A DNA stretch of 33,709 nt from Bacillota bacterium. GTDB taxonomy: Bacteria > Bacillota_I > Bacilli_A > Erysipelotrichales > Erysipelotrichaceae. Shown here one piece after another: positions 1-32,361 of this stretch. A program made the translations under genes and the position numbers. How positions within the stretch are numbered: position 1 is the stretch's first letter; each line of letters begins with the position of its first letter. The stretch spans positions 1-33,709 of the forward strand of contig JAJZTY010000006.1 in NCBI GenBank assembly GCA_021847325.1. Direction: 5' to 3'. Below the pieces are notes generated by a model. That model was not told the origin of the DNA and did no database searches. It saw nothing but the letters and a program-made list of their open reading frames with translations.

Positions 1-1092
1 ATTCTTTTCATCTTTCTTCGCTGTACAAGGCATTATGCTCACAACAACCACATCTTTTGGATCTAAGAATTTTGTCTGTGCATAATATGATTTTAAGATT
101 GCGCCAAACATCATATGTGGGCTTTTACATGTAGATAAATGATTGAGAATTTCAGGGTATTCTTTTTCACAATAGTTTATCCAACCTGGACTACATGATG
201 TAATTAGAGGCAAGTCTTTTTGTTTACTTAAGCGTGATAATAATTCATTTCCTTCTTCAATGATTGTTAAGTCAGCCGCAAAATCAGTATCATAAACACG
301 ATCAAATCCAATTTGCTTAAGCGCTGAAACCATTTTTCCTGTAACTCGAGTTCCTATTGGCAAACCAAATTCTTCACCTAATGATGCTCTAACTGCAGGA
401 GCAGTTTGTACAATCACATGTTTGTATGGATCATTTAGAGCTTGAATGACATCATGAATCTCTTCTTTTTCACTCAATGCACCAACTGGACAGTTCAAGA
501 TACATTGTCCACATTGGATACAGTTTACCTGACTTAAACTTAAGTTCATTACAGGACCTACTTTAGTATTAAATCCACGATCCATAAAGTTTAATACACC
601 TAATCCTTGAACATTCTTACATGTATCAACACATCTTCCACACAAGATACATTTACTACTATCCCTTACTAATCCATTGGATAAATTATCGAAATGGATC
701 TCTGTCTTTGACTTCGTTTGGTCAACTTGACGTACATTAAGTTCTTGAGCTAAGCGTTGTAACTCACATTTTTGGTTTCGTATACACGATAAGCAATCTT
801 GACTGTGATTTGAAAGCAATAGCTCTAATGTCATTTTTCTCGAGCTAATTGCACGTTTAGAATGCGTAAATATTTTCATTCCTTCTTCAACTTTTTGAAC
901 ACAAGAAGGAATACAATTCTTCTTTCCTTCAACTTCTACAACACAAATACGACATGCGCCTTTTACTTCACATCCTTCTAAATGACAGAGTGTTGGAATG
1001 TTAATATGATTTTCTCGGCATGCTTCTAATATACTTAATCCTTCTTTAACTTGAATCGGTTTACGATTAATCTCACAATTTACATGTTTCAT
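1..1092 (-). CDS. hndD: [FeFe]-hydrogenase catalytic subunit, HndD/HydA type (C-terminal part lies beyond window start)
   Basis: Translated by eye from ATG at 1092: MKHVNCEINRKPIQVKEGLSILEACRENHINIPTLCHLEGCEVKGACRICVVEVEG..., a 2Fe-2S N-terminus, then 4Fe-4S motifs (CILCGRCVDTC, CIQCGQCILNCPVGAL) and H-cluster motifs (ITSCSPGWINYCEKEYPEI, VSIMPCTAKKDE). Not in the ORF track because it is partial. Confidence 0.93.
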   Translation of the reverse strand, partial: MKHVNCEINRKPIQVKEGLSILEACRENHINIPTLCHLEGCEVKGACRICVVEVEGKKNCIPSCVQKVEEGMKIFTHSKRAISSRKMTLELLLSNHSQDCLSCIRNQKCELQRLAQELNVRQVDQTKSKTEIHFDNLSNGLVRDSSKCILCGRCVDTCKNVQGLGVLNFMDRGFNTKVGPVMNLSLSQVNCIQCGQCILNCPVGALSEKEEIHDVIQALNDPYKHVIVQTAPAVRASLGEEFGLPIGTRVTGKMVSALKQIGFDRVYDTDFAADLTIIEEGNELLSRLSKQKDLPLITSCSPGWINYCEKEYPEILNHLSTCKSPHMMFGAILKSYYAQTKFLDPKDVVVVSIMPCTAKKDEKN

Positions 1093-1093
1093 A

Positions 1094-2869
1094 TTATGCC
1101 CTCACAATCGCATCAAACTTACAGTTTAGTACACATGCGCCACAACGAATGCATAATTCAGGATCAATCACAAATGGATCTTTTCCAACCGTTCCAGTGA
1201 TGGCATAGGTTGGACATCCACGTGCACAGATACCACATTTCTTACAAAGCTCTACTTTAATCGTGTAATCTAAGAGTGCTTTACATACTTTCGCATCACA
1301 TTTCTTATCTACAACATGTCGAATATACTCTTCTTTAAAATTATGATAGGTTGATAAAAATGGGTTAGATGCGGTTTGTCCAAGTCCACATAATGAGTTT
1401 TCTTTGATATAAACCGCCAATTCTTCCATTTCATCTAATAATTCCAATGTGCCATGACCTTCAGTAATCTGATTTAGCATTTCAAGTAATCGCTTTGTCC
1501 CAATACGGCATGGAGTACATTTCCCACAGGATTCATCAACAATAAAATCCATGTAGAATCGTGCCACATCGACCATGCAATTGTCTTCATCTAGAATAAT
1601 CATTCCACCTGAACCCATCATTGATCCAAGCTTAACGAGTTCATCAAATCCAACAGGTGTTTCTAAATTCGCACTTGTTATACATCCTCCACTTGGTCCA
1701 CCTGTTTGCATTGCCTTAAAACTCTTATTATTAGGACATCCTTTCCCTATATCATAAACAACTTCTTTTAAAGTAATTCCCATACCAACTTCTACTAATC
1801 CTGTTTGTTTTATTTTCCCACCTAATGCGAATACTTTTGTGCCAGGTGAAGTTTCAGTCCCAATACTTCTAAACCATTTATGTCCTTTTAAGATAATTGG
1901 CACAATATTAGCAAGTGTTTCTACATTATTTATAATGGTTGGTTTACCCCATACACCACTTACACTTGGATATGGTGGTCTTGGTTTTGGTGTTCCACGC
2001 TTGCCTTCAATTGATGCGATTAATGCGGTTTCTTCACCACAGACAAATGCTCCTGCGCCAAGTCTAATTTCAACATCAAAATTGAAATTATAACCAAGAA
2101 TATTTTTACCCAGTAAACCATAGTCCTTAGCTTGTTTAATCGCAATCTCTAATCGTTCAACCGCAACAGGATATTCAGCACGAATATAAATATATCCATG
2201 ATGTGCTCCAATCGCATACGCCGCAATCATCATCGCTTCTATAATTGAATGTGGATCACCTTCCAAAACAGATCGATCCATAAAAGCCCCTGGATCCCCC
2301 TCATCCGCATTACATATAACATACTTTTCTTTGGATTCAGAGGTTCTAGCCAATTGCCACTTCATTCCGGTTGAAAAGCCTCCACCACCTCGACCTCTTA
2401 AACCAGATGCGATAATCTCATCGATAACTTCTTGAGGTGTTTTTGTTGATAATACTTTAGCTATAGCTTGATATCCATCATACGCAATGTATTCATCGAT
2501 TGATTCAGGGTTTATTTTCCCACTATTACGTAAAACTATACGAGTTTGTTTATAGTAAAAACGATCATTATCCCATTGATCAAATTTTTCTTTTAATTCT
2601 GGTTTAATCTTCTTAAGCTCAAATTGTTCAATTTTATTATCTTTTAAGAGTTGAATTTCTACGAGTAATCGAATCAAATTTTCATTCATATTTTCGTAGT
2701 AAATTTGATCAGGATAAATCGCACAAATAGATTTCTCGCTCTCTTTTACACTATGACAATATACCTCTACAGCTTGATCACAATGATTTCGTTTAAGTAC
2801 ATTTTTTAATTGATTAACTAAAGATTGGTCCTCTTCTTTTAAGAGTAAATGGATTCTTCTAGCTTTCAT
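1094..2869 (-). CDS. hndC: NADH-binding NuoF-like hydrogenase subunit (HndC/HydB)
   Basis: ORF 1094..2911. Contains SGLRGRGGGGFSTGMKWQ (FMN/NADH site), ESCGKCTPCRIGT, and a C-terminal 2x[4Fe-4S] domain (CKKCGICARGCP, CIRCGACVLNCKFDAI). Start set at MKARRIHLL (2869), overlapping the end of hndB. Confidence 0.93.
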   Translation of the reverse strand: MKARRIHLLLKEEDQSLVNQLKNVLKRNHCDQAVEVYCHSVKESEKSICAIYPDQIYYENMNENLIRLLVEIQLLKDNKIEQFELKKIKPELKEKFDQWDNDRFYYKQTRIVLRNSGKINPESIDEYIAYDGYQAIAKVLSTKTPQEVIDEIIASGLRGRGGGGFSTGMKWQLARTSESKEKYVICNADEGDPGAFMDRSVLEGDPHSIIEAMMIAAYAIGAHHGYIYIRAEYPVAVERLEIAIKQAKDYGLLGKNILGYNFNFDVEIRLGAGAFVCGEETALIASIEGKRGTPKPRPPYPSVSGVWGKPTIINNVETLANIVPIILKGHKWFRSIGTETSPGTKVFALGGKIKQTGLVEVGMGITLKEVVYDIGKGCPNNKSFKAMQTGGPSGGCITSANLETPVGFDELVKLGSMMGSGGMIILDEDNCMVDVARFYMDFIVDESCGKCTPCRIGTKRLLEMLNQITEGHGTLELLDEMEELAVYIKENSLCGLGQTASNPFLSTYHNFKEEYIRHVVDKKCDAKVCKALLDYTIKVELCKKCGICARGCPTYAITGTVGKDPFVIDPELCIRCGACVLNCKFDAIVRA

Positions 2870-3236
2870 AGGTTTCTTTAACTCCATTGATGGTATATTG
2901 ATCCAATACAATGTTTTGTTTGATGTGTTGATGGAGTATTTCTTTCATAATCTGTTCATCAACATTGATATATACAGTATGTTGACCATTGCGATCAATG
3001 ACTTCTACCATAGGTTCCAAGATACACATACCAACACATCCAGTTGGACATATCTGGATAGGATAATGATATTCACGTTTCATTTCAGTTAAATAATCAA
3101 AAATAAGCTTTGCTCCAGCTGCCTTACCACATGTACCCATTCCAATGAGTATTCGATGAGTTTCTTCAGTATTAATCAAATTTATCTGATTAAGTGTATC
3201 TCTTTGAATTTGTTTAAGTGTTTCAAGATTGACCAT
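2859..3236 (-). CDS. hndB: Thioredoxin-like [2Fe-2S] hydrogenase subunit (HndB-like)
   Basis: ORF 2859..3245. GMGTCGKAAGA...CPTGCVGMCILEPMVEV Cys pattern; lies between hndA and hndC. Confidence 0.85.
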   Translation of the reverse strand: MVNLETLKQIQRDTLNQINLINTEETHRILIGMGTCGKAAGAKLIFDYLTEMKREYHYPIQICPTGCVGMCILEPMVEVIDRNGQHTVYINVDEQIMKEILHQHIKQNIVLDQYTINGVKETYES

Positions 3237-3738
3237 AGCTTTCACTTGCCTTTCTTTCTTCTTGATGTAAAATATCTCGAACTTTATACTCTAAGCTTGG
3301 GTTATTGACCGCATTCGCATAGACAACCCCATCTAGAACCGCAACCGGTGCTAGTCCACACGCACCTAAGCAACGAGTGCTATCCAGTGAAAATAATCCA
3401 TTTTCACTTGTACTATTTAACTTAGCACCTGTGAGCTCTTCAAACTTGACAATCAATGCTTGAGCTCCTTTTACATAACAAGCAGTTCCCATGCAAATAT
3501 TGAGAACGTGTTTGCCTTTTGGTTCGAGTGTAAACTGAGTATAAAAACTCACAACACTGTAGATTTCAGAAATTGGAACATCCAGTTCTGAAGACATTTC
3601 TTTCATTGCTTCAAAAGGAATGTATCCAAGTTCATTTTGAATTTCGTGTAAGATTAATTTGATTGGTCCATTATGGTGTTTATGCTCTTCAATGATTCGT
3701 TTAATTGTACCGAAACTACTGGCGTTTAGTTGGCTCAT
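3223..3738 (-). CDS. hndA: NuoE-like [2Fe-2S] hydrogenase subunit (HndA/HydC)
   Basis: YSVVSFYTQFTLEPKGKHVLNICMGTACYVKGA...CLGACGLAPVAVLDG, the NuoE/HndA signature. Confidence 0.92.
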   Translation of the reverse strand: MSQLNASSFGTIKRIIEEHKHHNGPIKLILHEIQNELGYIPFEAMKEMSSELDVPISEIYSVVSFYTQFTLEPKGKHVLNICMGTACYVKGAQALIVKFEELTGAKLNSTSENGLFSLDSTRCLGACGLAPVAVLDGVVYANAVNNPSLEYKVRDILHQEERKASESYGQS

Positions 3739-3754
3739 AAACTCTCCTATTATC

Positions 3755-3772
3755 TTGTTAATTTATTAACAA
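3755..3772. promoter_or_regulatory. Rex-type operator 1 (TTGTTAATTTATTAACAA)
   Basis: Exact match to the TTGTTAA-N4-TTAACAA Rex operator form, between hndA and the divergent GGDEF gene. Confidence 0.82.
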
Positions 3773-3799
3773 TTACCGCTGATATGAGTATATCATATC

Positions 3800-3817
3800 T
3801 TGTTAATAAATTAACAA
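3800..3817. promoter_or_regulatory. Rex-type operator 2 (TTGTTAATAAATTAACAA; extended CTTG...CAAG 3799-3818)
   Basis: Second exact TTGTTAA-N4-TTAACAA, 45 bp from the first. Confidence 0.82.
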
Positions 3818-3900
3818 GTATTTCTATAACTTTATGTAAAATTATTTTATCAATTAATCGAATAAGTGCTATGATAAAAAAGATTAAAAAAGGAGTCGCC

Positions 3901-6129
3901 ATGGAAGATACTAGGATTATCAATAATGAAATCTTAAGAATTGACGAAATTTGTCAAAAAGTTAAACAAATTTTAAGTCAAAATCCAGAGGATGCCCTTT
4001 CACTTGCTCAAGAGAGTTATCATGCTTCTTTACAAATTGATTACACCAAAGGTATATGTGTTAGCCAATATCAAATGGGCTTAGCTTATTGGCGATTGGG
4101 TCAACTCCTTGAAGCATTAGATTATTTACATGAAGCAGATCAGCTAACAAAAGAAGTTGAAGGTACGTTGATTGAAGTTGAGATTTTAAATGCTTTGGGA
4201 AATGTTTACCTTGATTTACAGGTGTATGATTCTGCGTATACCTATTATCAAATTGGTTTACAGTTAGCTATTTCAAAAAATCAAGATTACATGAAATCTT
4301 CGATTTTAAGTAATATTGGTGAGATTTATCGAGAATTAAATGATTATGATTCTGCAATTGAACTTTATCTGATGAGTCTATCTGGGTTAGATAAAGAAGA
4401 GGATATATATCGTAGAATCTATCCCCTTTCAAATATTGCGGCTGTTTACTTAGCACAACGTGAATTTACTAAAGCTGAGGAATATGCAAATCTATCACTT
4501 GAGTTATCTCGTCAATGTCGTGACCGAATTGTAGAATCGGTAAGCTTAAAGTATTTAGGTGTAATTGCACGTGAAAATCACCAATTTGAGAAGGCGGTTA
4601 ATCTACTTCATCAAAGTTTAAGTATTTACAGTGAAACGAAAGAGATATTATTGTCGACAGAAGTATTATTTGAATTACACCAAGTTTATCGTGATCAAAA
4701 TGATATTAATCAAGCTTTAATCTATTTAAATGAAGTTATCTTAAATGCGGAACAAATCAACGCAGATCATATTCTTGCTCAAGCATATAAACGTCTAATT
4801 AAGGACCATGAAAGTCTAGGTAATATACAGAATTCCCTTTTCTTTGCGAATAAATACATTGAAACCGTTGATAAATTAGAGAAGACTAAAATAGCTCAAC
4901 GATTAAGTGGTATAAATCTGCAGAAACAAGCAGAAATTGCTTACCAAGAACGTGAAGCTTACTTTAGATTGTCTCAAGAGCTTGATGAAAAAGCCAAGTT
5001 GATTGAAAAAAATAATGAAGATTTAGATAAAGCTTATCAAAGCGCTAAAGCGATTAGTAAAATTGGTCGAAGTTTAACTGTACAAACGGATTTAGAAGAA
5101 ATCTATGATCTTGTTTATCAAAATGTGACAGTACTAATGGAATCAAGTACGTTTGGTATCGGTATGTACGATCAAGAAAGAGATTCGATCGAATATAAAT
5201 ATTTGATTGTCGATGGTGAGAGAATACAGAATTATTTCATTCCGTTATCGAATCACAATAGCTTAGCCGTAAAGTGTTATATAAATTCTAAGAGTTTCTT
5301 CTTTAATCGCAGAGATGAAATTGAACAATATTTGAACGCAAATATCAATGTTCGTATCGGTCAATTAATGGAATCCATCATGTTTGTCCCACTAACAATT
5401 GAAGAAAAGTGCATTGGAATTATTACCGTACAAAATCATGATCAAGATATTTATTCATCTCAGAGTGTTGAGACCTTAGAAACTCTTTCAGCTTATCTGG
5501 CAATAGCGATTCGTAACGCGCAGAAATCAGAAGCACTAAAAAATGAAATTGAGAAAAGAGAAGTTGTCCAACAAGAACTCAAAAAACTAAATAAAGAACT
5601 CTCTGATTTATCAGAAATCGACGGTTTAACTGGAATCGCTAATCGTAGACATTTTGATGAATTCTTTGAACATGAGTTTAGACATGCGGTTCGATATAAA
5701 ACACCTATCAGTTTAATGATGTTAGATATTGATTTCTTCAAAGAATACAATGATCATTATGGTCATTTAAATGGGGATAAGATTATTATTAAAATTGCGG
5801 AGATTATCAAAAAATATGCAAAACGTAGTAATGATCTTGCCGTACGATTTGGTGGAGATGAGTATATCGTATTATTAAGCGATGCGACCGAAGAATTTTG
5901 TCAAGCAGTTGCGTTTAATATTCAAGAAGAGTTAAAACAACTCAATCTTGTGCATGATTTTAGCTCTATTGTCCCTCGAATAACGTTAAGTATCGGGATA
6001 GCGAGTATTAATCCTGAAAGGGATACAGATCCAATGCGTCTATTAGAGTATGCGGATCATGCATTATATCAATCTAAAGAGAATGGACGTAATCGAATTA
6101 GTATTTATAAAAACAGCTCAGGTCATTAG
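3901..6129 (+). CDS. TPR-GAF-GGDEF diguanylate cyclase (cytosolic)
   Basis: ORF 3730..6129; likely start is MEDTRIINNE at 3901 behind aaaaaaGGAGtcgcc. TPR repeats, GAF-like region, C-terminal GGDEF (RFGGDEYIVLL) with RSND I-site five residues upstream. Confidence 0.88.
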   Translation: MEDTRIINNEILRIDEICQKVKQILSQNPEDALSLAQESYHASLQIDYTKGICVSQYQMGLAYWRLGQLLEALDYLHEADQLTKEVEGTLIEVEILNALGNVYLDLQVYDSAYTYYQIGLQLAISKNQDYMKSSILSNIGEIYRELNDYDSAIELYLMSLSGLDKEEDIYRRIYPLSNIAAVYLAQREFTKAEEYANLSLELSRQCRDRIVESVSLKYLGVIARENHQFEKAVNLLHQSLSIYSETKEILLSTEVLFELHQVYRDQNDINQALIYLNEVILNAEQINADHILAQAYKRLIKDHESLGNIQNSLFFANKYIETVDKLEKTKIAQRLSGINLQKQAEIAYQEREAYFRLSQELDEKAKLIEKNNEDLDKAYQSAKAISKIGRSLTVQTDLEEIYDLVYQNVTVLMESSTFGIGMYDQERDSIEYKYLIVDGERIQNYFIPLSNHNSLAVKCYINSKSFFFNRRDEIEQYLNANINVRIGQLMESIMFVPLTIEEKCIGIITVQNHDQDIYSSQSVETLETLSAYLAIAIRNAQKSEALKNEIEKREVVQQELKKLNKELSDLSEIDGLTGIANRRHFDEFFEHEFRHAVRYKTPISLMMLDIDFFKEYNDHYGHLNGDKIIIKIAEIIKKYAKRSNDLAVRFGGDEYIVLLSDATEEFCQAVAFNIQEELKQLNLVHDFSSIVPRITLSIGIASINPERDTDPMRLLEYADHALYQSKENGRNRISIYKNSSGH

Positions 6130-6138
6130 ACTTGAGCT
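6115..6138. terminator. Bidirectional hairpin spanning both convergent stop codons
   Basis: AGCTCAGGTC-ATTA-GACTTGAGCT inverted repeat with one G/T position, followed by TTTTCTTT on + and a T-rich run on -. Confidence 0.7.
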
Positions 6139-6551
6139 TTTCTTTGGCAATCTTCGCAGATACCTATAATTTCTAAACTATGTGATATGACTTTAAAGTT
6201 TTTTGATTCTTCGATTGAATCAATAATTGAATGCATCGGACAGTTCTCAATAGGTACCATTTTATGACACATCTGGCAGATTAAATAGTGTTGATGATGT
6301 GGTGTATGCAGTTGAATAAGTGTCGCATTATTTATACTACTATAGGTCTTCTCAACAATATGATGATCATAGAGACTATCCACGATTCGATATACTGTTG
6401 ATAAATTCATAGGATGCTTATTTTGTTTCAGTTTTTCTACAATTTGATCAATGGTCATCGGATAATCTTCTTTTTGTAAGAGATTGATTAAAGCTTCACG
6501 TTGTCTTGAATATTTTAGTTGGTTAATCGCTAATAATTCTTTTGCCTTCAT
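6126..6551 (-). CDS. zur: Fur-family metalloregulator, probable Zur
   Basis: Winged helix (TIDQIVEKLKQNKHPMNLSTVYRIVDSLYDHHIVEK) plus HTPHHQHYLICQMCHK and CEDCQ motifs; adjacent to znuBCA. Confidence 0.85.
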   Translation of the reverse strand: MKAKELLAINQLKYSRQREALINLLQKEDYPMTIDQIVEKLKQNKHPMNLSTVYRIVDSLYDHHIVEKTYSSINNATLIQLHTPHHQHYLICQMCHKMVPIENCPMHSIIDSIEESKNFKVISHSLEIIGICEDCQRKAQV

Positions 6552-6552
6552 A

Positions 6553-7374
6553 TTAACCCTCTTTTCTCACAATAGATAACCATGAAGATAATACAAAGAT
6601 TATCGCATTGATTAATACAATACTTGAACCTGTTGGTAAATCAAAGCTTATTGAAACGAATAGACCTAAAACAACACTAAAGCTTGAAATAATAACAGCC
6701 CAAATAATAGTAGATTTAAAGCTATTGGATAATCGTAGTGCACTTACTGTAGGAAAGATAATAAGACTTGAGATTAACATTGTCCCAACTACTCGAATCC
6801 CTAAAACAATCGTAATCGATGTAAGAAATGAAATTATTTGGTTTAATCGTTTTGTTTTACGTCCACTGACTTTTGCATAATCCATATCATATGTCATTGC
6901 GAATAAATCTTGATAAAAATATAAAACGGTACACACGATAATCAATGATAGAATCATTGATAAATAGACATCCATTTCAGAAATAATCAAAATACTACCA
7001 AATAGATAACTGTATAAATCAACACTGAATCCATTGGATAATGAAGATATCATAACCCCTATCGCAACTGCAGTAGAAGATATCAATCCGATTGCCGCAT
7101 CACCACCGATTCTGTTTTCTTCACTTAATTTTAGAATCAATAACGAGGATAAACTAACAATTGGGATTGATAATATAAGTGGAGACTGATTGAAAAGTAA
7201 TGCGAGGGCAACTGTCGCAAACGAAACATGAGCTAATCCATCCCCAATCATGGAGTATTTTCTTAATACAAGAAAAATACCTAAAAATGAACTACTAATC
7301 GAAATAAGTAATCCAACGATTAAAGCTCGTTGCATAAAAGTATATGAAAATAGATTAAATATGGATGTGATGTT
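6553..7374 (-). CDS. znuB: Zinc/metal ABC transporter permease (ZnuB-like)
   Basis: ORF 6553..7419; hydrophobic ABC-3 family permease (FLGIFLVLRKYSMIGDGLAHVSFATVALALL). Start inferred in the MNITSIFNLF region (about 7377). Confidence 0.9.
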   Translation of the reverse strand, partial: NITSIFNLFSYTFMQRALIVGLLISISSSFLGIFLVLRKYSMIGDGLAHVSFATVALALLFNQSPLILSIPIVSLSSLLILKLSEENRIGGDAAIGLISSTAVAIGVMISSLSNGFSVDLYSYLFGSILIISEMDVYLSMILSLIIVCTVLYFYQDLFAMTYDMDYAKVSGRKTKRLNQIISFLTSITIVLGIRVVGTMLISSLIIFPTVSALRLSNSFKSTIIWAVIISSFSVVLGLFVSISFDLPTGSSIVLINAIIFVLSSWLSIVRKEG

Positions 7375-8101
7375 CATGATTTTCCACCTGACATAATGCG
7401 GCTGTTGCTTGAGGGCCAATTTGAGCCATTAACTCTTCTGATTGACAGAGTTGCGTACTTAATCCATAGAAAACAACTTTTTGATCAAGATAAAGAATAT
7501 GTGTTGCATATAAACTTACTGAACTTAAATCATGTGATATTAATATGATACTAACCTTTTCTTCTTGGTGTAATTTTTTTATAAGTTGATAAAACTCTTC
7601 TCGAATGGCAGGATCCAACGCAGAGGTAGGTTCATCTAGTATAAGTAATTTAGGTTTATTGATTAAAGCACGTGCAAGATAAACACGTTGTTGTTGACCA
7701 CCTGATAAATAACCTATACGTTTTTTTAATAGTGTTTCTATCCCTAACTTTTTACTTAGTTCAATTATTTCTTTATTGGCATCTATTTTTTTTAACGCTT
7801 CACGATTTAAACCAGTCATTATGATTTCATATACAGATGCTGGAAAATGTTTATCATGATTGAAACTCTTTTGTGGTAAATACCCAATTTGATTACGGGA
7901 GAAATTAGGCGAGAAAACAAATTCACCACTACTTGTTTCTATAAGTCCTAATAGCGCTCTCATTAATGTAGTTTTACCGGATCCATTTGGTCCAACGATG
8001 GCACAGTAATCATTTTCATCAATTGAGAAATTTATCTTATCTAAGGCAACCATTTTCCCAAAATGAACACTTACATCTTTTGATTCGATTAATTTACTCA
8101 T
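7355..8101 (-). CDS. znuC: Zinc/metal ABC transporter ATPase (ZnuC-like)
   Basis: Walker A GPNGSGKTT, signature YLSGGQQQRV, Walker B LLILDEPTSALD. Confidence 0.93.
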   Translation of the reverse strand: MSKLIESKDVSVHFGKMVALDKINFSIDENDYCAIVGPNGSGKTTLMRALLGLIETSSGEFVFSPNFSRNQIGYLPQKSFNHDKHFPASVYEIIMTGLNREALKKIDANKEIIELSKKLGIETLLKKRIGYLSGGQQQRVYLARALINKPKLLILDEPTSALDPAIREEFYQLIKKLHQEEKVSIILISHDLSSVSLYATHILYLDQKVVFYGLSTQLCQSEELMAQIGPQATAALCQVENHEHHIHI

Positions 8102-9017
8102 AGTTTAAAGCCACCTTTAACTTCTCAATATTAGATCTCATAACATCAAAGTATGTTAATCCTTGTGCCATTTCTTCTAGACTTAGATTATGTGCACCAT
8201 GTAATACCTCAATATTCGCACCCGTTTGTTCAGAGATTGTACGAGCTATCTTTGGATCGACAAGTTCTTCATAAAATATGACTTTTATTTGATTCTCTTG
8301 CATTACATTGATTAATTCTGCTAGAGAACTTACACTCGGTTCTGCATCAGGCGAATACCCCGTATACGGAGATAAGATTTCTATATTAAATCGATTTGAT
8401 AAATAGCCAAACGCAAAATGACCCCCATAAATAATTTTATTAAGCTTCACACGATTAAATAGATCAATAAACTCTTGATCCAATTTATCCAATTCAGATA
8501 AATAGATATTCGCATTCGCTTGATAAAAATCCGCATTCTCTGGATCCATTTCAATTAAACCAGCCGTGATATTTTCTGCCATAATTTTAGCATTTAGTGG
8601 ATCCAACCAAAAATGAGGATCATATTCTTCATCATGATCTTCTTCATCACTATGTTCCTCTTCTAAATGTGTGATTAATTCAACACCATTTGAAGAATTC
8701 ACAACAATCGGACCTTGATCATTTAATTCTGTAAATAAATTACTAATCCATGTTTCCATGATGTCACTGGTATAAACAAATAAATCCGATTCATTTATAC
8801 GAATAATTGTGTTTGGTGTTGGTTCATATGAGTGAGGTTCCACCCCTGCTGGTAATAAAAGTTCTAAATTTACTTTATCCTTTGCGATGGCTCTCACCAT
8901 ATCGTATTGAGGAAATAATGTCACAATAACATTTGGTTTATCAGATTCAGCTTCTATATTTGAACATCCACTTAATAGAATTAAAGTTAATAAAATTGTT
9001 ATAATCGTTTTCTTCAT
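8094..9017 (-). CDS. znuA: Zinc ABC transporter substrate-binding lipoprotein (ZnuA-like)
   Basis: Lipobox LILLSGC, His/Asp/Glu-rich loop (HLEEEHSDEEDHDEEYDPHFWLDP). Start at MKKTII (9017); the upstream ATG belongs to the GGAG Shine-Dalgarno. Confidence 0.93.
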   Translation of the reverse strand: MKKTIITILLTLILLSGCSNIEAESDKPNVIVTLFPQYDMVRAIAKDKVNLELLLPAGVEPHSYEPTPNTIIRINESDLFVYTSDIMETWISNLFTELNDQGPIVVNSSNGVELITHLEEEHSDEEDHDEEYDPHFWLDPLNAKIMAENITAGLIEMDPENADFYQANANIYLSELDKLDQEFIDLFNRVKLNKIIYGGHFAFGYLSNRFNIEILSPYTGYSPDAEPSVSSLAELINVMQENQIKVIFYEELVDPKIARTISEQTGANIEVLHGAHNLSLEEMAQGLTYFDVMRSNIEKLKVALNYE

Positions 9018-9037
9018 AATATTCTCCATTCAATGTG

Positions 9038-10463: not shown

Positions 10464-10739
10464 ATGGAAATCAAACAAAACACAGAAGCATTTTATATCG
10501 GAGATCGATTTGAAGAAGCACTCGCAAAACTTGAATTTGAAAATACAGACTATGGAATGGTTTTAACACACACTGAGGTTTCTGAAGAACTTAAAGGACA
10601 AGGTGTGGGTCGTGCACTTGTTAAATATGTTGTGGAAATAGCACGTAATGAAAAATTCAAATTGAAATTAGAATGTGAGTATGCAAAGAGAGAATTTGAA
10701 AAACATCCTGAATATCAAGATGTTCTCTTTACTGATTAG
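10464..10739 (+). CDS. YidJ-type GNAT N-acetyltransferase (COG2388-like)
   Basis: LTHTEVSEELKGQGVGRALVKYVVEIARNEKFKLKLECEYAKREFEKHPEYQDVL; start at MEIKQN. Confidence 0.88.
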   Translation: MEIKQNTEAFYIGDRFEEALAKLEFENTDYGMVLTHTEVSEELKGQGVGRALVKYVVEIARNEKFKLKLECEYAKREFEKHPEYQDVLFTD

Positions 10740-12453
10740 ATTGTCTCCTTTTGTCTTCATACATTTTCTTATCACTCATCGCAATGATGGTTTCTAAGTC
10801 ATCTGAGTTAGGTACAAACTGATGGAAACCAATCGCTAAACTTAAGTTTAGTTTTAATTCTCCAATCGCGAAAGGTTCACTAAAGTTATCACGTATACGC
10901 TTGATAACTTTTTCTATGGAATTTCTATCTTTCATATGGGCAATAATGACAAATTCATCTCCGCCCATTCTAAATATCATGTCTGTTTCATGACAACTAT
11001 TTCTTAAGCGACGTGCTGTGATTCTAAGGACTTCATCTCCTATTTTATGCCCATATTCATCATTGATATCTTTGAATCCATTTAAATCGATAAATAACAC
11101 GAAGAATAAATCGTTTGATTCGTATTTGCTCATATCAAATTTAAGTTCATTGAGATAAGAACGATTCCATAGTTTTGTTAGTGGATCAATCTTTACAATA
11201 TTCTCAAGATGGATGGTTCGCTCACTGATAATTGAAAAACGATGGATTACACTTGCCGCAATAAATAACGTAAAAATCATGATCATTAAATAAAATGAGT
11301 AACGAGTATTTTGTATGAAATATATAGATACCATTGCACTTGCGATGGAAGCAATTAGAATAAAGATACTATAAATGTTTAATGTCTGTTTTCGATAAGC
11401 CAAATAAGCATAATATAAGTAATGTATTCCAAATATACCTATTAATACTTGGAAAACAAGATATAAGAACTCTAAACCTGAATGATTCAATAACACAGAG
11501 GCAAAAAGGAAGAAAAGTATGATTGAATATGCAATGGTACGGTATCTTTGATTAAACTTGAAAATACTAAATGTGTTTGATAATAAATTAAAAGTCGGTA
11601 ACATCAAGAAAACAGATAAATATTCGAGTCTAAGTACCCAAATTAATGGCAGATTAAAATATGGATTAAGAAAATATATAATATGACTGCCTGTACTCAT
11701 AATACGAACTGCAAATAAGAAGCATAAGAGTGACATAAACAAGGATCTACGATCTTTTATAATGATATAGATTAATAAGAATAGAACACTAAATGAAAAC
11801 ATGGCAGAAAAAGCAAATAATTCGACAAATATAGATGTTTCATAAAAATAGAGAATATCATCGAAATCACCAAAAAGTGGTGCATAGATAAATCCTGAAT
11901 TTACTTTTTCATAATTTGAGACTTCGATAATTATCTCAGCATTTCCATTCAGATCACTTTTAAAGACATCTTTATCCGTAAAACTCTCACCCATCGTTGT
12001 GAGTGAATTCTTCCCAATAACTCCATTGGATAGTATTTTTTTACCATTTATGGATAAGCGATAGCTCGATCCTGCTTCTTCAAGAAGTAAACCATACTCC
12101 ATCTCTGGATCAAGTCCTGTTAGTAATAAACGATAAGTCGCATATCCATACCCATTTTCAAATGAGTTATCGGTAATCCACTCATGTTCAATATTACGAA
12201 AATCATGTTTGAGTTTAATTTGTGAGAGTTCATCTTCCAAGATAAAAACCTCAGGATAAAATTCCCATTCTCCTTTTAACCGATAGAGAGTATTGGTTTC
12301 GATTTCTTCAATGTTTAGTGTTCCACTTTTACTCTCAAGATCTTTAACTTTTTGAAAATCTTTGTTAAATGACCATATGTAAGTCACAAGTGAAAAGACT
12401 AATAAGAATGTGATAATTTTGAAATTTTTCATAGCACTTTGTTTAAATATCAT
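10729..12453 (-). CDS. 7TM-DISM-like membrane GGDEF diguanylate cyclase
   Basis: Extracellular sensor region, seven or so hydrophobic segments, C-terminal GGDEF (FRMGGDEFVIIAH). The true start may be 12432 (MKNFK). Confidence 0.87.
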   Translation of the reverse strand: MIFKQSAMKNFKIITFLLVFSLVTYIWSFNKDFQKVKDLESKSGTLNIEEIETNTLYRLKGEWEFYPEVFILEDELSQIKLKHDFRNIEHEWITDNSFENGYGYATYRLLLTGLDPEMEYGLLLEEAGSSYRLSINGKKILSNGVIGKNSLTTMGESFTDKDVFKSDLNGNAEIIIEVSNYEKVNSGFIYAPLFGDFDDILYFYETSIFVELFAFSAMFSFSVLFLLIYIIIKDRRSLFMSLLCFLFAVRIMSTGSHIIYFLNPYFNLPLIWVLRLEYLSVFLMLPTFNLLSNTFSIFKFNQRYRTIAYSIILFFLFASVLLNHSGLEFLYLVFQVLIGIFGIHYLYYAYLAYRKQTLNIYSIFILIASIASAMVSIYFIQNTRYSFYLMIMIFTLFIAASVIHRFSIISERTIHLENIVKIDPLTKLWNRSYLNELKFDMSKYESNDLFFVLFIDLNGFKDINDEYGHKIGDEVLRITARRLRNSCHETDMIFRMGGDEFVIIAHMKDRNSIEKVIKRIRDNFSEPFAIGELKLNLSLAIGFHQFVPNSDDLETIIAMSDKKMYEDKRRQSNQ

Positions 12454-12561
12454 ACACTATTCATTTTAAAAACACTATTAGATTAGTACTTATTAGAAGA
12501 GTGTATGATTGTAAAGTCAAAAAATAAGTTATACAATGTTTTTAAATAAAATGAGGAATCT

Positions 12562-13674
12562 ATGTCAAATAATACACAAATTTTGATTCTTGATAATGAT
12601 CTATCTTGTTTAACCACTTTAGAACGTATCCTTCATTCATTGGGTGAGGTTATATGTTTTAATAATGCGATGGACTTTTTAGAACATTTAAAAACAAAAT
12701 CGAGTCCTGGAATCATTTTAATTGATACCAACTCTCATGGATTTAATGGGTATGAAATTCTTAATAAACTTCATAGTCAATCCATTATCAATGATGTGCC
12801 CATCTTGCTTACCATAAAAGAAGATGTTAAGGATGAAAGTACGATACATTTATCCGGAGCACATGATTATTTATTTAAACCTTATCGTTTAAGCATCGTT
12901 CAAAATAGAGTTAAATCCTATCTTGAATTAAAACAAGTAAGAGATCAATTGAAAGATCAGGCTCGTTGGATTGAGAATGAAGTAACAAAACGTATTTATG
13001 ATTTACAACTGACATTTGATTTGTCCATCGATATTGTGACTCAATTGGTTGAGACACGTAATCCTGACGGAGCTACACATATTACACGTACTCGAAATTA
13101 TTATGAAATCATTATGCGTAGACTTCAAAAATCTGAGAAATATCGCTCCGTTATTGATGAAAAGTATATTGTACGTACTGTAAAGGCCAGTCCTTTACAT
13201 GATATTGGTAAAATGGGTATCCCTGAAAATATCTTGATGAAGAATGATAAATTATCTACGGATGAGTTTGATATCGTAAAAACACATACTACTATTGGTT
13301 ATAATACAATTAAGAATGTAGTTGATACGAGTTTTATTACTGATTTATTGAAATCTAATGCTAATAGTGATTCGTCCGAGTTCTTTAAAGAAGCACTTAA
13401 TATCGCGAAATATCACCATGAGTATTGGGATGGTAGTGGTTATCCTGAAGGATTAAAAGAAGATAAAATCCCTTTATCAGCTCGTGTTATGGCGATTGTG
13501 GATGTATTTGATGCCTTGAGTAATAAACGTGTCTACAAAGAAGCTTGGAGTATCGAAAAAACAACTCACTATATCAAGTCTAAGAGTGGAACACAATTTG
13601 ACCCTGATGTAGTTAAAGCTTTCTTACTAGAATCCGATGCGATTCGAAAAATCTGGGAAACAACCCGAAATTAA
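12562..13674 (+). CDS. Response regulator with HD-GYP phosphodiesterase domain (RpfG-like)
   Basis: REC domain (ILILDND..., IILIDTNSHGFNGYEIL), then HDIGKMGIPENIL and YHHEYWDGSGYPEGLKEDKIPLSARVMAIVDVFDAL. Confidence 0.92.
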   Translation: MSNNTQILILDNDLSCLTTLERILHSLGEVICFNNAMDFLEHLKTKSSPGIILIDTNSHGFNGYEILNKLHSQSIINDVPILLTIKEDVKDESTIHLSGAHDYLFKPYRLSIVQNRVKSYLELKQVRDQLKDQARWIENEVTKRIYDLQLTFDLSIDIVTQLVETRNPDGATHITRTRNYYEIIMRRLQKSEKYRSVIDEKYIVRTVKASPLHDIGKMGIPENILMKNDKLSTDEFDIVKTHTTIGYNTIKNVVDTSFITDLLKSNANSDSSEFFKEALNIAKYHHEYWDGSGYPEGLKEDKIPLSARVMAIVDVFDALSNKRVYKEAWSIEKTTHYIKSKSGTQFDPDVVKAFLLESDAIRKIWETTRN

Positions 13675-13692
13675 ATAAGAACCAATAAAATT

Positions 13693-13728
13693 AGCACATA
13701 ATAGTTATACCTTAATTAATTATGTGCT
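13693..13728 (+). terminator. Rho-independent-like terminator after the HD-GYP gene
   Basis: AGCACATAAT ... ATTATGTGCT inverted repeat followed by TTTATATTTAT. Confidence 0.65.
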
Positions 13729-13801
13729 TTTATATTTATAATACAAAACTCAACTTTTAGTTTGCATAATCTTTAACTTCCTCTGTATACTTATAGTGTC
13801 T

Positions 13802-16099
13802 ATGAAATCAATTAGAACCCAAATGATCAGTTTAATCGTAGTCGTATGCGTCATCGTATTTTTTGGGTTAAATTATTCCATTGAACAGAAATTAAATGAA
13901 CTAAAAAATCATACCATTACGCAATATTTAGATATTACAGATTCTCGTGCAAATGAAGTAAGTAAAGAACTTGTTGGAATAATTAATCAAGTAAGAATGA
14001 TATCAAAGTCTACGATTATTCAATCAATGGATTTAAACATAATTAAAGATTATCTAAAGAGTTTGATTGAAGATAGTAATATTCGGAGTATGACATTTTC
14101 TGATATTAATGGGAAAGCTTGGACTACCTATGATTCTGATATTGATATTTCTAATCAGGAACAATACAAATCAATCATTATCGATCAAAAAGAATGGATT
14201 ATTTCTAATCCATTTCATAGCCCTTATTTCTTTGAAGATATCCCTATTATCACAATTTCTCATCAGATAAAAGTAAATGATGAAATTGTTGGTTTACTTA
14301 ATGCCGTTGTGACGACTGAGTTCATGAATAAGATTACTGAATCCATTCAATTTAAGAATTTGAGTTTTGCGTGGATTATTGATTCTAATGGTAAGATTGT
14401 TTCTCATCCAAATAAGTCGATTTCAATCGATCAATCGTATAATAATATCCTTCAATATGAAGGTTCCAATCCTTTTACATACAATAGTGGGTCGTTTAAT
14501 TATCTTGATGAGAATAATCGATCTATGTTAGCTGTATATTCAACGATTCCAAATACATCTGGTTGGAAGCTCATAATTTCAATTGAAAATAGAAATGCGT
14601 TTACCGAATTAACATCTGTCATGAATTATGTGGATTATGCATTGTTAATTAGTTTAGTGATTCTTATCTTATTTGCGTTAGTGTATGCGAATTCAATTTC
14701 TGAGCCTATTTTACGTTTAAGACATGTGTTTGAACGTGCTGAGAAAGGCGATTTAAATGTTAAAGCAGATGAGAGTGTTAAGAATGAGATAGGATTAGCT
14801 GGTGTTAGTTTTAATCATATGTTACAGGAGATTAAGAATTTAACGTATATTGATCCTGTGACGCAAATTGGTAATTATCGAAGTTATTTAAGTGAATCTA
14901 ATTTTATCATTCAATCGAATAAGAATGATACGTATTATGTGGTCGTCATTTCGATTGATGATTTCAAGAAAATAAATAGTTTAGGTGGTTATGGCTTTGG
15001 GAATGAGACATTAAAGAAGTTTGCGGAACTAATTCAAACTCAACTTCATGAGGATGAGATTGTGGCTCGTTATTTTGGGGATGAGATGATTCTTTTACTT
15101 AAAGAGAATGATTTAGAAGTCTTAAGAGAAAGAATTAGTGTCTTACTTAAGGAATGTCAAAGACCATTTATCATTATGGACATCGATATTCATTTGAGTA
15201 TAAGTTGTGGAATTGCTAAGCATATTTCGACTGATACGATTGAAATGAGTATTCATAACTCTACCATTGCGAAGTTAAAAGCTAAGAAGATGGGTGGTAA
15301 TGTTGCGATATTTTATGGGGATGGAATTAATCAAGAGATTAAGCTTGAGCAGGATATTGAGAAAGAACTTTATCATGCGATAGATCGTAATGAGCTCTAT
15401 TTGGTTTATCAGCCTATATTTGATTTAAAGTCTATGAAAATCAGTGGATTTGAAGCTTTATTAAGATGGAATCATCCAATTTATAATTCTCATCGAATTG
15501 ATTCAATTATAAAAATTGCGGAGAATTCTGGTCAAATGCCTAAGATTGGTCGATGGGTTATGAAAGAAGCATGTTATCAGTTAAAAGCACTTAATGAAAC
15601 TTTCCCTGATTTAAGTATTGCGTTAAATGTTTCTATGGTTCAGTTTAATGACAGTTATTTCATTAAGAATGTAGAAGAAATTCTAAAGTATACGAAAATT
15701 AATCGTAATAATCTGATTTTTGAGATTACTGAGTCTTCTGCTATGAATAACGTGGATGAGAATTTAAATGATTTAAGACGTTTAAAGGATTTAGGTATTG
15801 GATTATCGATTGATGATTTTGGGACAGGTTATTCTTCATTAGCTTATTTAAGTCAGTTCCCAATTGATCATATAAAGATTGATCGTAATTTTATCCGTAA
15901 GATGACTGAAGAATCGTCTGATTTAATGTTAGTTAAAACAATGATTACTTTAGCTAAATCACTTCATTTGGAAGTTATTGCGGAGGGTGTAGAAAGCTTA
16001 GAAGAAATGAATATTTTGAAGTCTCTTGAGTGTGATAAGATTCAAGGATATTTGATTAGTAAGCCAAAAAGAATGAAAGATTTAGAAATAGTGAGCTAA
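13802..16099 (+). CDS. Cache-HAMP-GGDEF(degenerate)-EAL protein, probable c-di-GMP phosphodiesterase
   Basis: ORF 13796..16099 (GTG at 13796 or ATG at 13802). Periplasmic Cache-like region between TM helices, HAMP, GGDEF site degenerate (RYFGDEM), EAL intact (GFEALLRWNHP, DDFGTGYSSL, VIAEGVES). Confidence 0.9.
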   Translation: MKSIRTQMISLIVVVCVIVFFGLNYSIEQKLNELKNHTITQYLDITDSRANEVSKELVGIINQVRMISKSTIIQSMDLNIIKDYLKSLIEDSNIRSMTFSDINGKAWTTYDSDIDISNQEQYKSIIIDQKEWIISNPFHSPYFFEDIPIITISHQIKVNDEIVGLLNAVVTTEFMNKITESIQFKNLSFAWIIDSNGKIVSHPNKSISIDQSYNNILQYEGSNPFTYNSGSFNYLDENNRSMLAVYSTIPNTSGWKLIISIENRNAFTELTSVMNYVDYALLISLVILILFALVYANSISEPILRLRHVFERAEKGDLNVKADESVKNEIGLAGVSFNHMLQEIKNLTYIDPVTQIGNYRSYLSESNFIIQSNKNDTYYVVVISIDDFKKINSLGGYGFGNETLKKFAELIQTQLHEDEIVARYFGDEMILLLKENDLEVLRERISVLLKECQRPFIIMDIDIHLSISCGIAKHISTDTIEMSIHNSTIAKLKAKKMGGNVAIFYGDGINQEIKLEQDIEKELYHAIDRNELYLVYQPIFDLKSMKISGFEALLRWNHPIYNSHRIDSIIKIAENSGQMPKIGRWVMKEACYQLKALNETFPDLSIALNVSMVQFNDSYFIKNVEEILKYTKINRNNLIFEITESSAMNNVDENLNDLRRLKDLGIGLSIDDFGTGYSSLAYLSQFPIDHIKIDRNFIRKMTEESSDLMLVKTMITLAKSLHLEVIAEGVESLEEMNILKSLECDKIQGYLISKPKRMKDLEIVS

Positions 16100-16114
16100 A
16101 GTCTCACTTTTTTT
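16090..16114 (+). terminator. Terminator overlapping the stop of the Cache-EAL gene
   Basis: AGTGAG-ctaaagt-CTCACT followed by TTTTTT; the stem starts inside the last codons. Confidence 0.75.
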
Positions 16115-16185
16115 ATGTCTATTTAAGCATTTTCTTTTTATCTTTTGTTTAGAATGGTATCATAATAAAAAAAGGGCTTGATATC

Positions 16186-17781
16186 ATGTTTAAATCGATG
16201 CGACAGTTCTTTCATTCAATTGAGGAACATTTATTTAAGAAAGAGTGGATTGGAAGTCCTGATTATGAGGCTTTACGTTTTACTTTGATTTATATATTTG
16301 TTGGACTCATTTGGATTATATGGTCAGATGATTTATTGGTTATCTTAGTTCAAGATATCGATTTAATCTTGCAGTTTCAGACGTTAAAGGGTTGGTTTTA
16401 TGTCTTTATGTCTGGTTTACTGTTTTCTGTTATTTTAAAAAGAAGAATTAGAATGATTCGTAGCCTCTCTGATAACATTCTTTATCAAAATACGCACGAT
16501 ACATTAACGGAATTACCGAATCGAGCTAAGAGTAGTGAAATTATCAATAATCGAATTAAACAGAATCCTCAGTCTGTATTTGCGTTAGTGAGTTTAGATT
16601 TAGATGATTTCTCGAATGTTAATGAGTTATTGGGATATCATATTGGGGATGAGTTGATTATTTCTTTAACACATAATTTAAGTCAAAAACTGAGTACAGA
16701 TGATTTTATTTCGCGTAATGGAGATGGTTTTATCTTAATTCTTGATCTTACAAATCGTAATAGAACTCAATTAAATCAATACTTAAATATGATTTTGGAT
16801 ATTGTTAATCGAGAGCGTGTTATTGAGAATCAAACCGTATTTATCACTTGTAGTCTAGGTGTTTCTTTATATCCTAAAGATGGGTCTGATTTTAATGAAT
16901 TATTTAAGGCAGCGGATACGGCAATGCGTCATCTTAAAGGATTGCGTAAGAATAGTTATAACTTCTATACTGAGGATTATCATAAAGAACGTGTTAATCG
17001 AGTTAAAATGATTAATGAGTTGAGAAAAGCTATCGAAAGTAATGAATTGTATATGTTGTATCAACCTATTTATGATATGGAAGGTATGAGAGTTCATTCG
17101 TTTGAAGCTTTGATTCGATGGAAATCTCCAACCTTTGGACAAGTGTCTCCTAATGTATTTATCTCTTATGCCGAGAATACCAATTTGATTTCACTGATAG
17201 ATGAGTATGTGTTTGTGACATGTATGAAGTTAAGACGAAAATGGCATGATTTAGGGGATCATTCTACCATTCTTTCTATTAATCTTTCGTCAAAAGGTTT
17301 AGTTGATCCTGGTTTTATGCATACCATTGAACGTTTATGTTTGGAACATTTCTACATTCCAAATGGAATACAGATAGAAATTACTGAAACTGCTTTAATT
17401 TCTAACTTTGATTTAGCAAAATCACATTTATTACGTTTAAAACGACTTGGATTTATTATTGCCTTAGATGATTTTGGGGCTGGTTATTCATCATTGACTT
17501 ACTTACATCAGTTGCCGATTGATTGTATGAAAATTGATCGCTCTTTCTCTCTTAATCCTGGTGTAAATAATAATCAAGATTTAATCTTACAAGCGATTAT
17601 CAACTTAGCTCAGAAGTTACATTTGAAGGTAGTGGCAGAAGGTATTGAGACAAATATACAAAAAGATTTCTTCTTAGAAATGGATTGTAGTTTAGGTCAA
17701 GGGTACTTATTTGCTTATCCTGAGGCTGAGAATCTTGCGACTCAACGAGTTGAAGAGTTATTAGAAAAGGCTAAACTTTAA
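16186..17781 (+). CDS. Membrane GGDEF(degenerate)-EAL protein, probable c-di-GMP phosphodiesterase
   Basis: Two N-terminal TM helices, degenerate GGDEF (SRNGDGFILIL), intact EAL (SFEALIRWKSP, DDFGAGYSSL, VVAEGIET). Confidence 0.9.
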   Translation: MFKSMRQFFHSIEEHLFKKEWIGSPDYEALRFTLIYIFVGLIWIIWSDDLLVILVQDIDLILQFQTLKGWFYVFMSGLLFSVILKRRIRMIRSLSDNILYQNTHDTLTELPNRAKSSEIINNRIKQNPQSVFALVSLDLDDFSNVNELLGYHIGDELIISLTHNLSQKLSTDDFISRNGDGFILILDLTNRNRTQLNQYLNMILDIVNRERVIENQTVFITCSLGVSLYPKDGSDFNELFKAADTAMRHLKGLRKNSYNFYTEDYHKERVNRVKMINELRKAIESNELYMLYQPIYDMEGMRVHSFEALIRWKSPTFGQVSPNVFISYAENTNLISLIDEYVFVTCMKLRRKWHDLGDHSTILSINLSSKGLVDPGFMHTIERLCLEHFYIPNGIQIEITETALISNFDLAKSHLLRLKRLGFIIALDDFGAGYSSLTYLHQLPIDCMKIDRSFSLNPGVNNNQDLILQAIINLAQKLHLKVVAEGIETNIQKDFFLEMDCSLGQGYLFAYPEAENLATQRVEELLEKAKL

Positions 17782-30133: not shown

Positions 30134-31315
30134 TTAACGATCTTTAACTAAAAGTTTATTTGTAAGAACATCAATCCCAAATGCACCAAGAGGCGCTGTA
30201 ATAAGAATTGCAAGTACTGCCGCAGCTAAAATGATATTGCCTGAACTAAAACCTAAACTAAAAGGAATGGATCCAATAGCCGCTTGAACAGTTGCCTTTG
30301 GAATATATGCAACGCCTGTAAACAACCTTTCTTTAGGGGTTAAATTAGATTTGACCAAACACATTTGGACTCCAATAATACGAGAAATTAATCCTAAAAC
30401 TAAAACTAATGCGATTAACCATGCATACGATTGTAAACTTGATAAGTCGACCACTGCCCCAACCAAAATAAACAAGAAAACTTCAGATGCGACCCATATC
30501 TTTGAAAATTTAGATGTGATTCGATTAGCGAGTTTTGGATAGAAGTAAAGAATGCTTAATCCGATTGATATAACGCTTAATAAAGCGGAATATGGAAAAT
30601 AATTTGTTATTTGATGTTCAAGACCAAGTAATAGAAATGAAATACTTAATATGAGTAATACTTTAATTGTATCTCGCATGTGAATGCGTTTAAATACACT
30701 TACAAAGATCCAACCGATTAAGAAACCTAAACCAATTCCCGTTAAGATTGATATAGGAAGAGATAGAAATAAAGAAAAATCGATTGCTTGACCTTGTCTA
30801 AGTGATACAAAGGAAGTAAATAAAATAATTACGAAGATATCATCTAAACTTGCCCCAGCCATGATAATCTGAGGAATTCGATGTTTGTGACCATAGCCCT
30901 CTTGTATTAGATGGATCATTCTTGGAACGACAACTGCAGGTGAAACAGCTGCTAAGACTGCTCCTAAAATTGCCGCATCTAAGATAGAAATATTTAAAAT
31001 GATAGGCGCAATCAGGATAATCATTCCCATTTCGAATAAAGCAGGAAGAAAACTCATCAGTAAAGCCGGACGACCAATTTTGATTAAATCTTGAATATCT
31101 AAACTTAATCCAGCCCTTAATAATATTACGAGTAATGCGATTTGTCTGAGTTCAGACGCAATATTAAGTAAAGATGGACTAATCAGATTAAACATATGTG
31201 GTCCAAGTAGTATTCCTGCTAAAATCATCCCAATGAGACCAGGTAGTTTTATCAGCTTAAATAAACCACTTAATCCAAATCCAACTAACAACATAAGTGC
31301 TAAACTAACTAACAT
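30134..31315 (-). CDS. Monovalent cation/proton antiporter (CPA superfamily)
   Basis: LPGLIGMILAGILLGPHMFNLI, ELRQIALLVILLRAGLSLDIQDL, AAVSPAVVVPRMI; about 12 TM helices. Confidence 0.88.
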   Translation of the reverse strand: MLVSLALMLLVGFGLSGLFKLIKLPGLIGMILAGILLGPHMFNLISPSLLNIASELRQIALLVILLRAGLSLDIQDLIKIGRPALLMSFLPALFEMGMIILIAPIILNISILDAAILGAVLAAVSPAVVVPRMIHLIQEGYGHKHRIPQIIMAGASLDDIFVIILFTSFVSLRQGQAIDFSLFLSLPISILTGIGLGFLIGWIFVSVFKRIHMRDTIKVLLILSISFLLLGLEHQITNYFPYSALLSVISIGLSILYFYPKLANRITSKFSKIWVASEVFLFILVGAVVDLSSLQSYAWLIALVLVLGLISRIIGVQMCLVKSNLTPKERLFTGVAYIPKATVQAAIGSIPFSLGFSSGNIILAAAVLAILITAPLGAFGIDVLTNKLLVKDR

Positions 31316-31325
31316 ATTTCCTCCT

Positions 31326-31410
31326 AAAAAAAGCTGATGATCTGTTAAAAAGAAACAGAAGTCATCAGCTTTACGCGGTTTTCTTTCGATGGGAGACGCT
31401 CATTCCCTAT
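31326..31410 (-). ncRNA. Probable fluoride riboswitch (crcB motif) with intrinsic terminator
   Basis: Reverse strand ATAGGGAATGAGCGTCTCCCATCGAAAGAAAACCGCGTAAAGCTGATGACTTCTG then AACAGATCATCAGCTTTTTTT. The conserved AUGAG...CCGC...GCUGAUGA elements align with crcB aptamers, and the terminator 3' arm sequesters GCUGAUGA. Confidence 0.78.
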
Positions 31411-31413
31411 AAA

Positions 31414-31442
31414 ACATTATCGTATTTAATCAATTAAGTCAA
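31414..31442 (-). promoter_or_regulatory. Promoter for riboswitch/antiporter, embedded in trpP 3' end
   Basis: Reverse strand TTGACT-N17-TAATGT; the -35 TTGACT is the last Leu-Thr codons of trpP. Predicted +1 is near the aptamer AGGG. Confidence 0.6.
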
Positions 31443-31955
31443 CGAGACTTTCTTCAATCGATCTTTCTTCATAATTAATTGAGCTGTTTGATATAGGATA
31501 ACCGTTAATCCAGTGTTTGCTAAAGCTGTTGGAACTACAATAAGAATAAAAAGACTCGAAAATGACACAGGTAGACCAACCATCAAACTTGCACTTCCAA
31601 GGAAAATAATTCCACTTAATATTGTTCCTACGAACCCTAGTAATGCGACCTTTATACTATTCATAGAAAATTTCATTCCTTTAGTATAGATTAATACAAA
31701 CAAAGCAGTGAATACTTTATCCAATATGGAGGGTATCTGTCCTCCTGGAAATCCAGTTGTTAGTGCTGCCATGATACCTGCCACAATACCTATGACAAGC
31801 ACATTGTTGAGTTTGGGTTGATAAAGAATCGCTATAAAAAGCGTTGCGAGTAAAAAATCTGGTTTTACTGATCCGAATAAACTTGGTGTCACAGTATGTA
31901 GAGTTAAGCCTAATGCGAGTAAAATTCCCGCTAATACAAGTTCTCTTGTTTTCAT
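31434..31955 (-). CDS. trpP: TrpP-like tryptophan transporter (ECF S-component-like)
   Basis: MKTRELVLAGILLALGLTLHTVTPSLFGSVKPDFLLATLFIAILYQP...TGFPGGQIPSILDKVFTALFV; preceded by a T-box. Confidence 0.82.
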   Translation of the reverse strand: MKTRELVLAGILLALGLTLHTVTPSLFGSVKPDFLLATLFIAILYQPKLNNVLVIGIVAGIMAALTTGFPGGQIPSILDKVFTALFVLIYTKGMKFSMNSIKVALLGFVGTILSGIIFLGSASLMVGLPVSFSSLFILIVVPTALANTGLTVILYQTAQLIMKKDRLKKVSLT

Positions 31956-32025: not shown

Positions 32026-32270
32026 ATAAAAAAACACCCTTGCCCAATATAGGCGCAAGTGGTGTTCGCGGTGCCATCCTAATTATCACAAAAATGTGAC
32101 ATCTTTCTTCAGATACTAACATATCCTAGCTTCTATAACGGTAAGCATCCGTCTTGGTTACTGTAATTCACCTTGCTCTTATGGACCCATTCAACTTTTT
32201 ACAAGGTTCAGTTCGCACCATCCACTGACTCTCTATACCTTGAATATAAAAGCTTACTACTTTCCAATCA
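32026..32270 (-). ncRNA. T-box leader (tRNA-sensing), probable Trp specificity
   Basis: Reverse strand contains AGAGAGTCAGTGGATGGTGCGAACTG (Stem I distal), GAATGGGTCCATAAGAGC (specifier region, TGG at 32187-32189), AGGATGGCACCGCG (T-box, 32067-32080) and terminator AACACC...GGTGTTTTTTT. Confidence 0.9.
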
Positions 32271-32361
32271 TCGATTTATGTTTCAAGTTTAACATTTAAG
32301 CATGACTAAATCAAGAATAAGTTTTATATGTTAAAATAATGACATTAAAGTGAGGAATTGT

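Follow-up and report, generated by a model that had tools for sequence, protein, structure and literature searches.

Two predicted Rex operators bracket the putative promoter of an NADH-linked [FeFe]-hydrogenase operon in an Erysipelotrichaceae bacterium

The window, i.e., the whole stretch of 33,709 nucleotides analysed here, starts within a hydrogenase operon that is read on the minus strand. Its first gene, hndA (3226..3738), encodes a NuoE-like, thioredoxin-like [2Fe-2S] protein (Pfam PF01257) and is followed by a gene for a small HndB-like protein (2859..3245), which has no Pfam or NCBIfam match and whose place in the gene order is conserved in all relatives read, then by hndC (1094..2911) for a NuoF-like NADH-binding subunit (PF01512 and PF10589) and by hndD/hydA (1..1092) for the [FeFe] hydrogenase large subunit (PF02906), cut by the contig end. 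The best NCBIfam match of HydA is the NADH-dependent group A6, a partial match that stays below the cut-off because the large subunit is incomplete at the contig end. NuoE- and NuoF-like proteins together with an (incomplete) FeFe large subunit in one operon constitute the gene set of an NADH-linked trimeric or tetrameric [FeFe] hydrogenase (Hnd/HydABC). Facing the operon, a TPR-GAF-GGDEF diguanylate cyclase is encoded on the plus strand (3901..6129; Pfam), and it also adjoins hnd in three congeners. The cyclase displays a GGDEY motif, with an RxxD five residues before it, i.e., at the I-site position. These Pfam and NCBIfam assignments bear out the flanking genes proposed in an earlier note made from the letters alone (hereafter the sequence-only reading), namely a hydrogenase operon on the minus strand and a TPR-GAF-GGDEF gene on the plus strand.

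Several other features of the window and of its relatives should be mentioned. A longer hnd operon was found in relatives without the divergent cyclase (G007, G003, G014 and G059; loci L045, L047, L050 and L053), in which several extra genes, one of them for a PHP-domain protein, separate the NuoE-like gene from the HndB-like one. The compact operon is that of the four cyclase-bearing species, and the cyclase may have been gained in connection with the loss of the extra genes. Tail to tail with the cyclase, a minus-strand group (6126-9029) of genes for a Fur-family regulator, a ZnuA-like binding protein and an ABC transporter probably constitutes an operon for the uptake of zinc or manganese; in the three congeners (G004, G005 and G006), the cyclase is likewise followed by a gene of the Fur family. 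Further along, positions 10729-17781 hold a cluster of c-di-GMP genes: a GGDEF gene (10729-12453, minus), a response regulator with an HD-GYP-type domain (12562-13674, plus), a dCache-HAMP-GGDEF-EAL gene (13796-16099, plus) and a GGDEF-EAL gene (16186-17781, plus). Note that no PilZ match was found in the 1.8 Mb genome, against 21 GGDEF and 5 EAL matches. Near the end of the window, a fluoride riboswitch (31349-31416, minus) precedes a sodium/hydrogen-exchanger-family transporter gene (30134-31315, minus), and a T-box leader (32048-32280, minus) precedes the gene of the tryptophan transporter TrpP (31434-31955, minus).

The hnd/cyclase intergenic stretch (162 bp, AT-rich with 23% GC) contains two palindromes, box 1 (TTGTTAATTTATTAACAA, 3755-3772) and box 2 (TTGTTAATAAATTAACAA, 3800-3817), which are spaced 45 bp apart and each display 0 mismatches to TTGTTAANNNNTTAACAA. 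Indeed, when compared with the two 18-bp palindromic operator forms, i.e., TTGTTAANNNNTTAACAA and the wider published Rex consensus TTGTGAANNNNTTCACAA (PMC6391272), both boxes are exact for the TTGTTAA form. The coordinates, consensus and spacing given by the sequence-only reading were all confirmed. In the 1,797,483-base assembly scanned (81% complete, 169 contigs), exact copies of TTGTTAANNNNTTAACAA occur twice, both times in this intergenic region, compared to ~0.095 copies expected per genome from a first-order Markov estimate, and not one exact copy appeared when the 162-bp stretch was shuffled 50,000 times with its dinucleotides preserved. Cooperative binding on the same face was considered and rejected, as a spacing of 45–46 bp (~4.3 turns) gives no hint of it; the distance kept by the boxes is rather that to the -10 element.

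This element, an extended -10 of the predicted hnd promoter (TGATATACT, 3787..3795, minus strand), is separated from box 1 by 14 bp and from box 2 by 7 bp. No good separate -35 was found for the hnd promoter, and the TTGTTA of box 2 lies 18–19 bp upstream of the extended -10. Computationally, the hnd start site would be near 3780, which places box 2 at ~-21 to -38 and box 1 at ~+8 to +25. The minus-strand extended -10 noted earlier is thus present between the boxes (3795-3787), and with this inferred start the suggested layout holds as well: box 2 overlaps the -35/spacer region, and box 1 lies a few bases downstream of the start.

The same divergent pair was found in the three congeners, in which the boxes read TTGTTAATTTRTTAACAT and TTGTTATTTTTTTAACAA, with one mismatch each, and lie 46 bp apart with TGTTATACT between them. 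In all four species, TGNTATACT is kept at the -10 and box 1 is 14 bp away from it (4/4), and 7 or 8 bp separate the -10 from box 2. Invariant columns over the four species reach 16/18 (89%) in box 1, 14/18 (78%) in box 2 and 8/9 (89%) in the hnd -10, compared to 22–39% elsewhere in the intergenic region (e.g., 4/16 in the hnd leader, 7/18 at the other positions between the boxes and 9/25 in the cyclase leader). As the three congeners are closely related, the four-species comparison is in effect one of two lineages; despite this, the contrast between the boxes and their surroundings is sharp. In the four species, the boxes bracket the predicted promoter of hnd, as expected of Rex operators, which lie in or near promoters of redox or fermentation genes.

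The sequence-only reading presupposed a rex gene in the genome, and one such gene was identified (C109), encoding a protein of 211–212 aa that scores above the NCBIfam Rex equivalog cut-off and aligns with crystallised Rex repressors along almost its full length. The genome-wide motif scan that it had proposed retrieved three sites with one mismatch. One is found immediately upstream of adhE (C83), where a weaker second box follows at 93 bp, another precedes a group B [FeFe] hydrogenase (C112), and the third separates a TetR regulator from an FMN/FAD-binding protein resembling fumarate reductase (C98). Near-consensus sites other than the hnd pair thus occur at known kinds of Rex target; however, the number of one-mismatch sites is not above that of a reversed-pattern control (3 versus 6 sites in the genome, 4 of these 6 being inside open reading frames), and therefore the support they provide is positional and not numerical. 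Near-consensus sites also occur in relatives: upstream of the group B hydrogenase in G004, G005 and G006, upstream of a MaoC/acyl-CoA dehydrogenase operon in G001, G002, G006 and G007, and, in G014 (genus g8), upstream of an operon that starts with a NuoE gene. A rex gene was found in all the site-bearing relatives (G001, G002, G004, G005, G006 and G014) except G007, a 79% complete genome in which rex was not found although a site precedes its MaoC/acyl-CoA dehydrogenase operon.

Three published cases come closest to the hnd region. The predicted Rex site of the hfsABCD hydrogenase operon of Thermoanaerobacterium saccharolyticum, TTGTTAATAAATTAACTA, shares 17/18 bases with box 2, and both sites lie upstream of an [FeFe]-hydrogenase operon, but one site is listed there and two bracket the predicted promoter here (PMC5886521). 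At adhE of T. saccharolyticum, where TTGTTAATAAATTAACAC is listed, the double Rex site is similar to the hnd pair, with two boxes in one upstream region; the spacing differs, with ~120 bp at that gene (PMC5886521), 93 bp at adhE of the present genome and 45 bp at hnd. In Caldicellulosiruptor bescii, a Rex site also lies upstream of the FeFe hydrogenase operon (Hyd), and gel shifts support Rex repression of [FeFe]-hydrogenase genes (PMC6391272). Binding was thus tested in C. bescii and is predicted at hnd, and the text of that study mentions no divergent cyclase, the term ‘GGDEF’ being absent from it (PMC6391272).

Altogether, we estimate at about 0.88 the probability that, as judged from sequence, the two palindromes are Rex operators controlling the promoter of the NADH-linked [FeFe]-hydrogenase operon located between them. 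The predicted control of the hydrogenase operon, already put forward by the sequence-only reading, is strongly supported, as rex is present and the boxes have been conserved together with the promoter; the sites at known kinds of Rex target and the near-identical published site support it further.

It had also been suggested that the cyclase shares this control. The intergenic stretch would then be a common control region in which Rex directly regulates both genes and ties NADH/NAD+ to c-di-GMP, a reading that we consider unlikely. In its favour, the divergent arrangement of the two genes persists in four species, c-di-GMP genes are numerous in the genome, and the plus strand offers a weak promoter here, TTGTTA-19-TATAAC (3800-3830), whose -35 would fall within box 2. 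However, this alternative is not kept in the congeners, and the best cyclase promoter predicted by consensus scan, TTATCA-17-TATGAT with an extended -10 (3847..3875, plus strand), begins 29 bp past box 2; its position is not conserved, and such plus-strand sites are no commoner than in shuffled sequence. With a cyclase start near 3882, box 2 would sit at ~-66 to -83, presumably beyond direct hindrance of RNA polymerase. In addition, 16/49 columns (33%) are invariant from box 2 up to the cyclase -10, and 2/9 (22%) at this -10 itself. Homologues of the cyclase in the sister genus g8 (36–38% identity) have no nearby box with one mismatch or fewer, and where their neighbours were read (G014, G301 and G305), the adjacent gene is not hnd but a small conserved one, named by eye as HIT-type. 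A profile search of the genome contigs with the cyclase alignment retrieved distant GGDEF genes only, and a search of the open-access literature found no link between Rex and a diguanylate cyclase. Promoter position and conservation do not support the shared control, nor do the homologues elsewhere, and the cyclase is most likely transcribed from a separate promoter further downstream without being a direct Rex target; if it were under Rex, c-di-GMP signalling would receive direct input from the redox state of fermentation. It should be noticed that the aligned cyclase of G005 and G006 (L024 and L023) contains one in-frame TAA. In G006, a 718-aa open frame starts at an ATG inside the match (L041:6780), and therefore this TAA probably precedes the true start and does not interrupt the gene.

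The binding of a CRP/FNR-family regulator instead of Rex is improbable. The motif TGTTA-N6-TAACA has the spacing of a CRP/FNR site, and two clear CRP/FNR-family proteins with N-terminal cysteines are encoded in the genome; however, compared with TGTGA-N6-TCACA or TTGAT-N4-ATCAA, each half-site is one base off, differing from both TGTGA and TTGAT, and published Rex sites agree with both the outer TTGTTAA arms and the range of target genes. We thus rejected a CRP/FNR-family site, the half-site fitting Rex better. Finally, it is hardly credible that the palindromes are RNA hairpins of the hnd leader. Box 1 would be part of the transcript and could fold into a short stem, but this stem is weak (-2.2 to -3.1 kcal/mol), and box 2, upstream of the predicted start, would be outside the transcript.

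For the Rex operators at hnd, we infer the following course of binding, NADH response and repression around the predicted start site. At low NADH/NAD+, one Rex dimer would cover the -35 and spacer at box 2, another would occupy box 1 immediately downstream of the start, and transcription of hndABCD would be blocked; when NADH rises, Rex would be released, the hydrogenase would be made and electrons would be disposed of as H2. Two boxes around a hydrogenase promoter are a textbook arrangement of a known kind, since Rex sites have been published at the [FeFe]-hydrogenase operons of T. saccharolyticum and C. bescii. The locus provides a clean and conserved example of predicted Rex control of an NADH-linked hydrogenase, with a tidy two-box layout.
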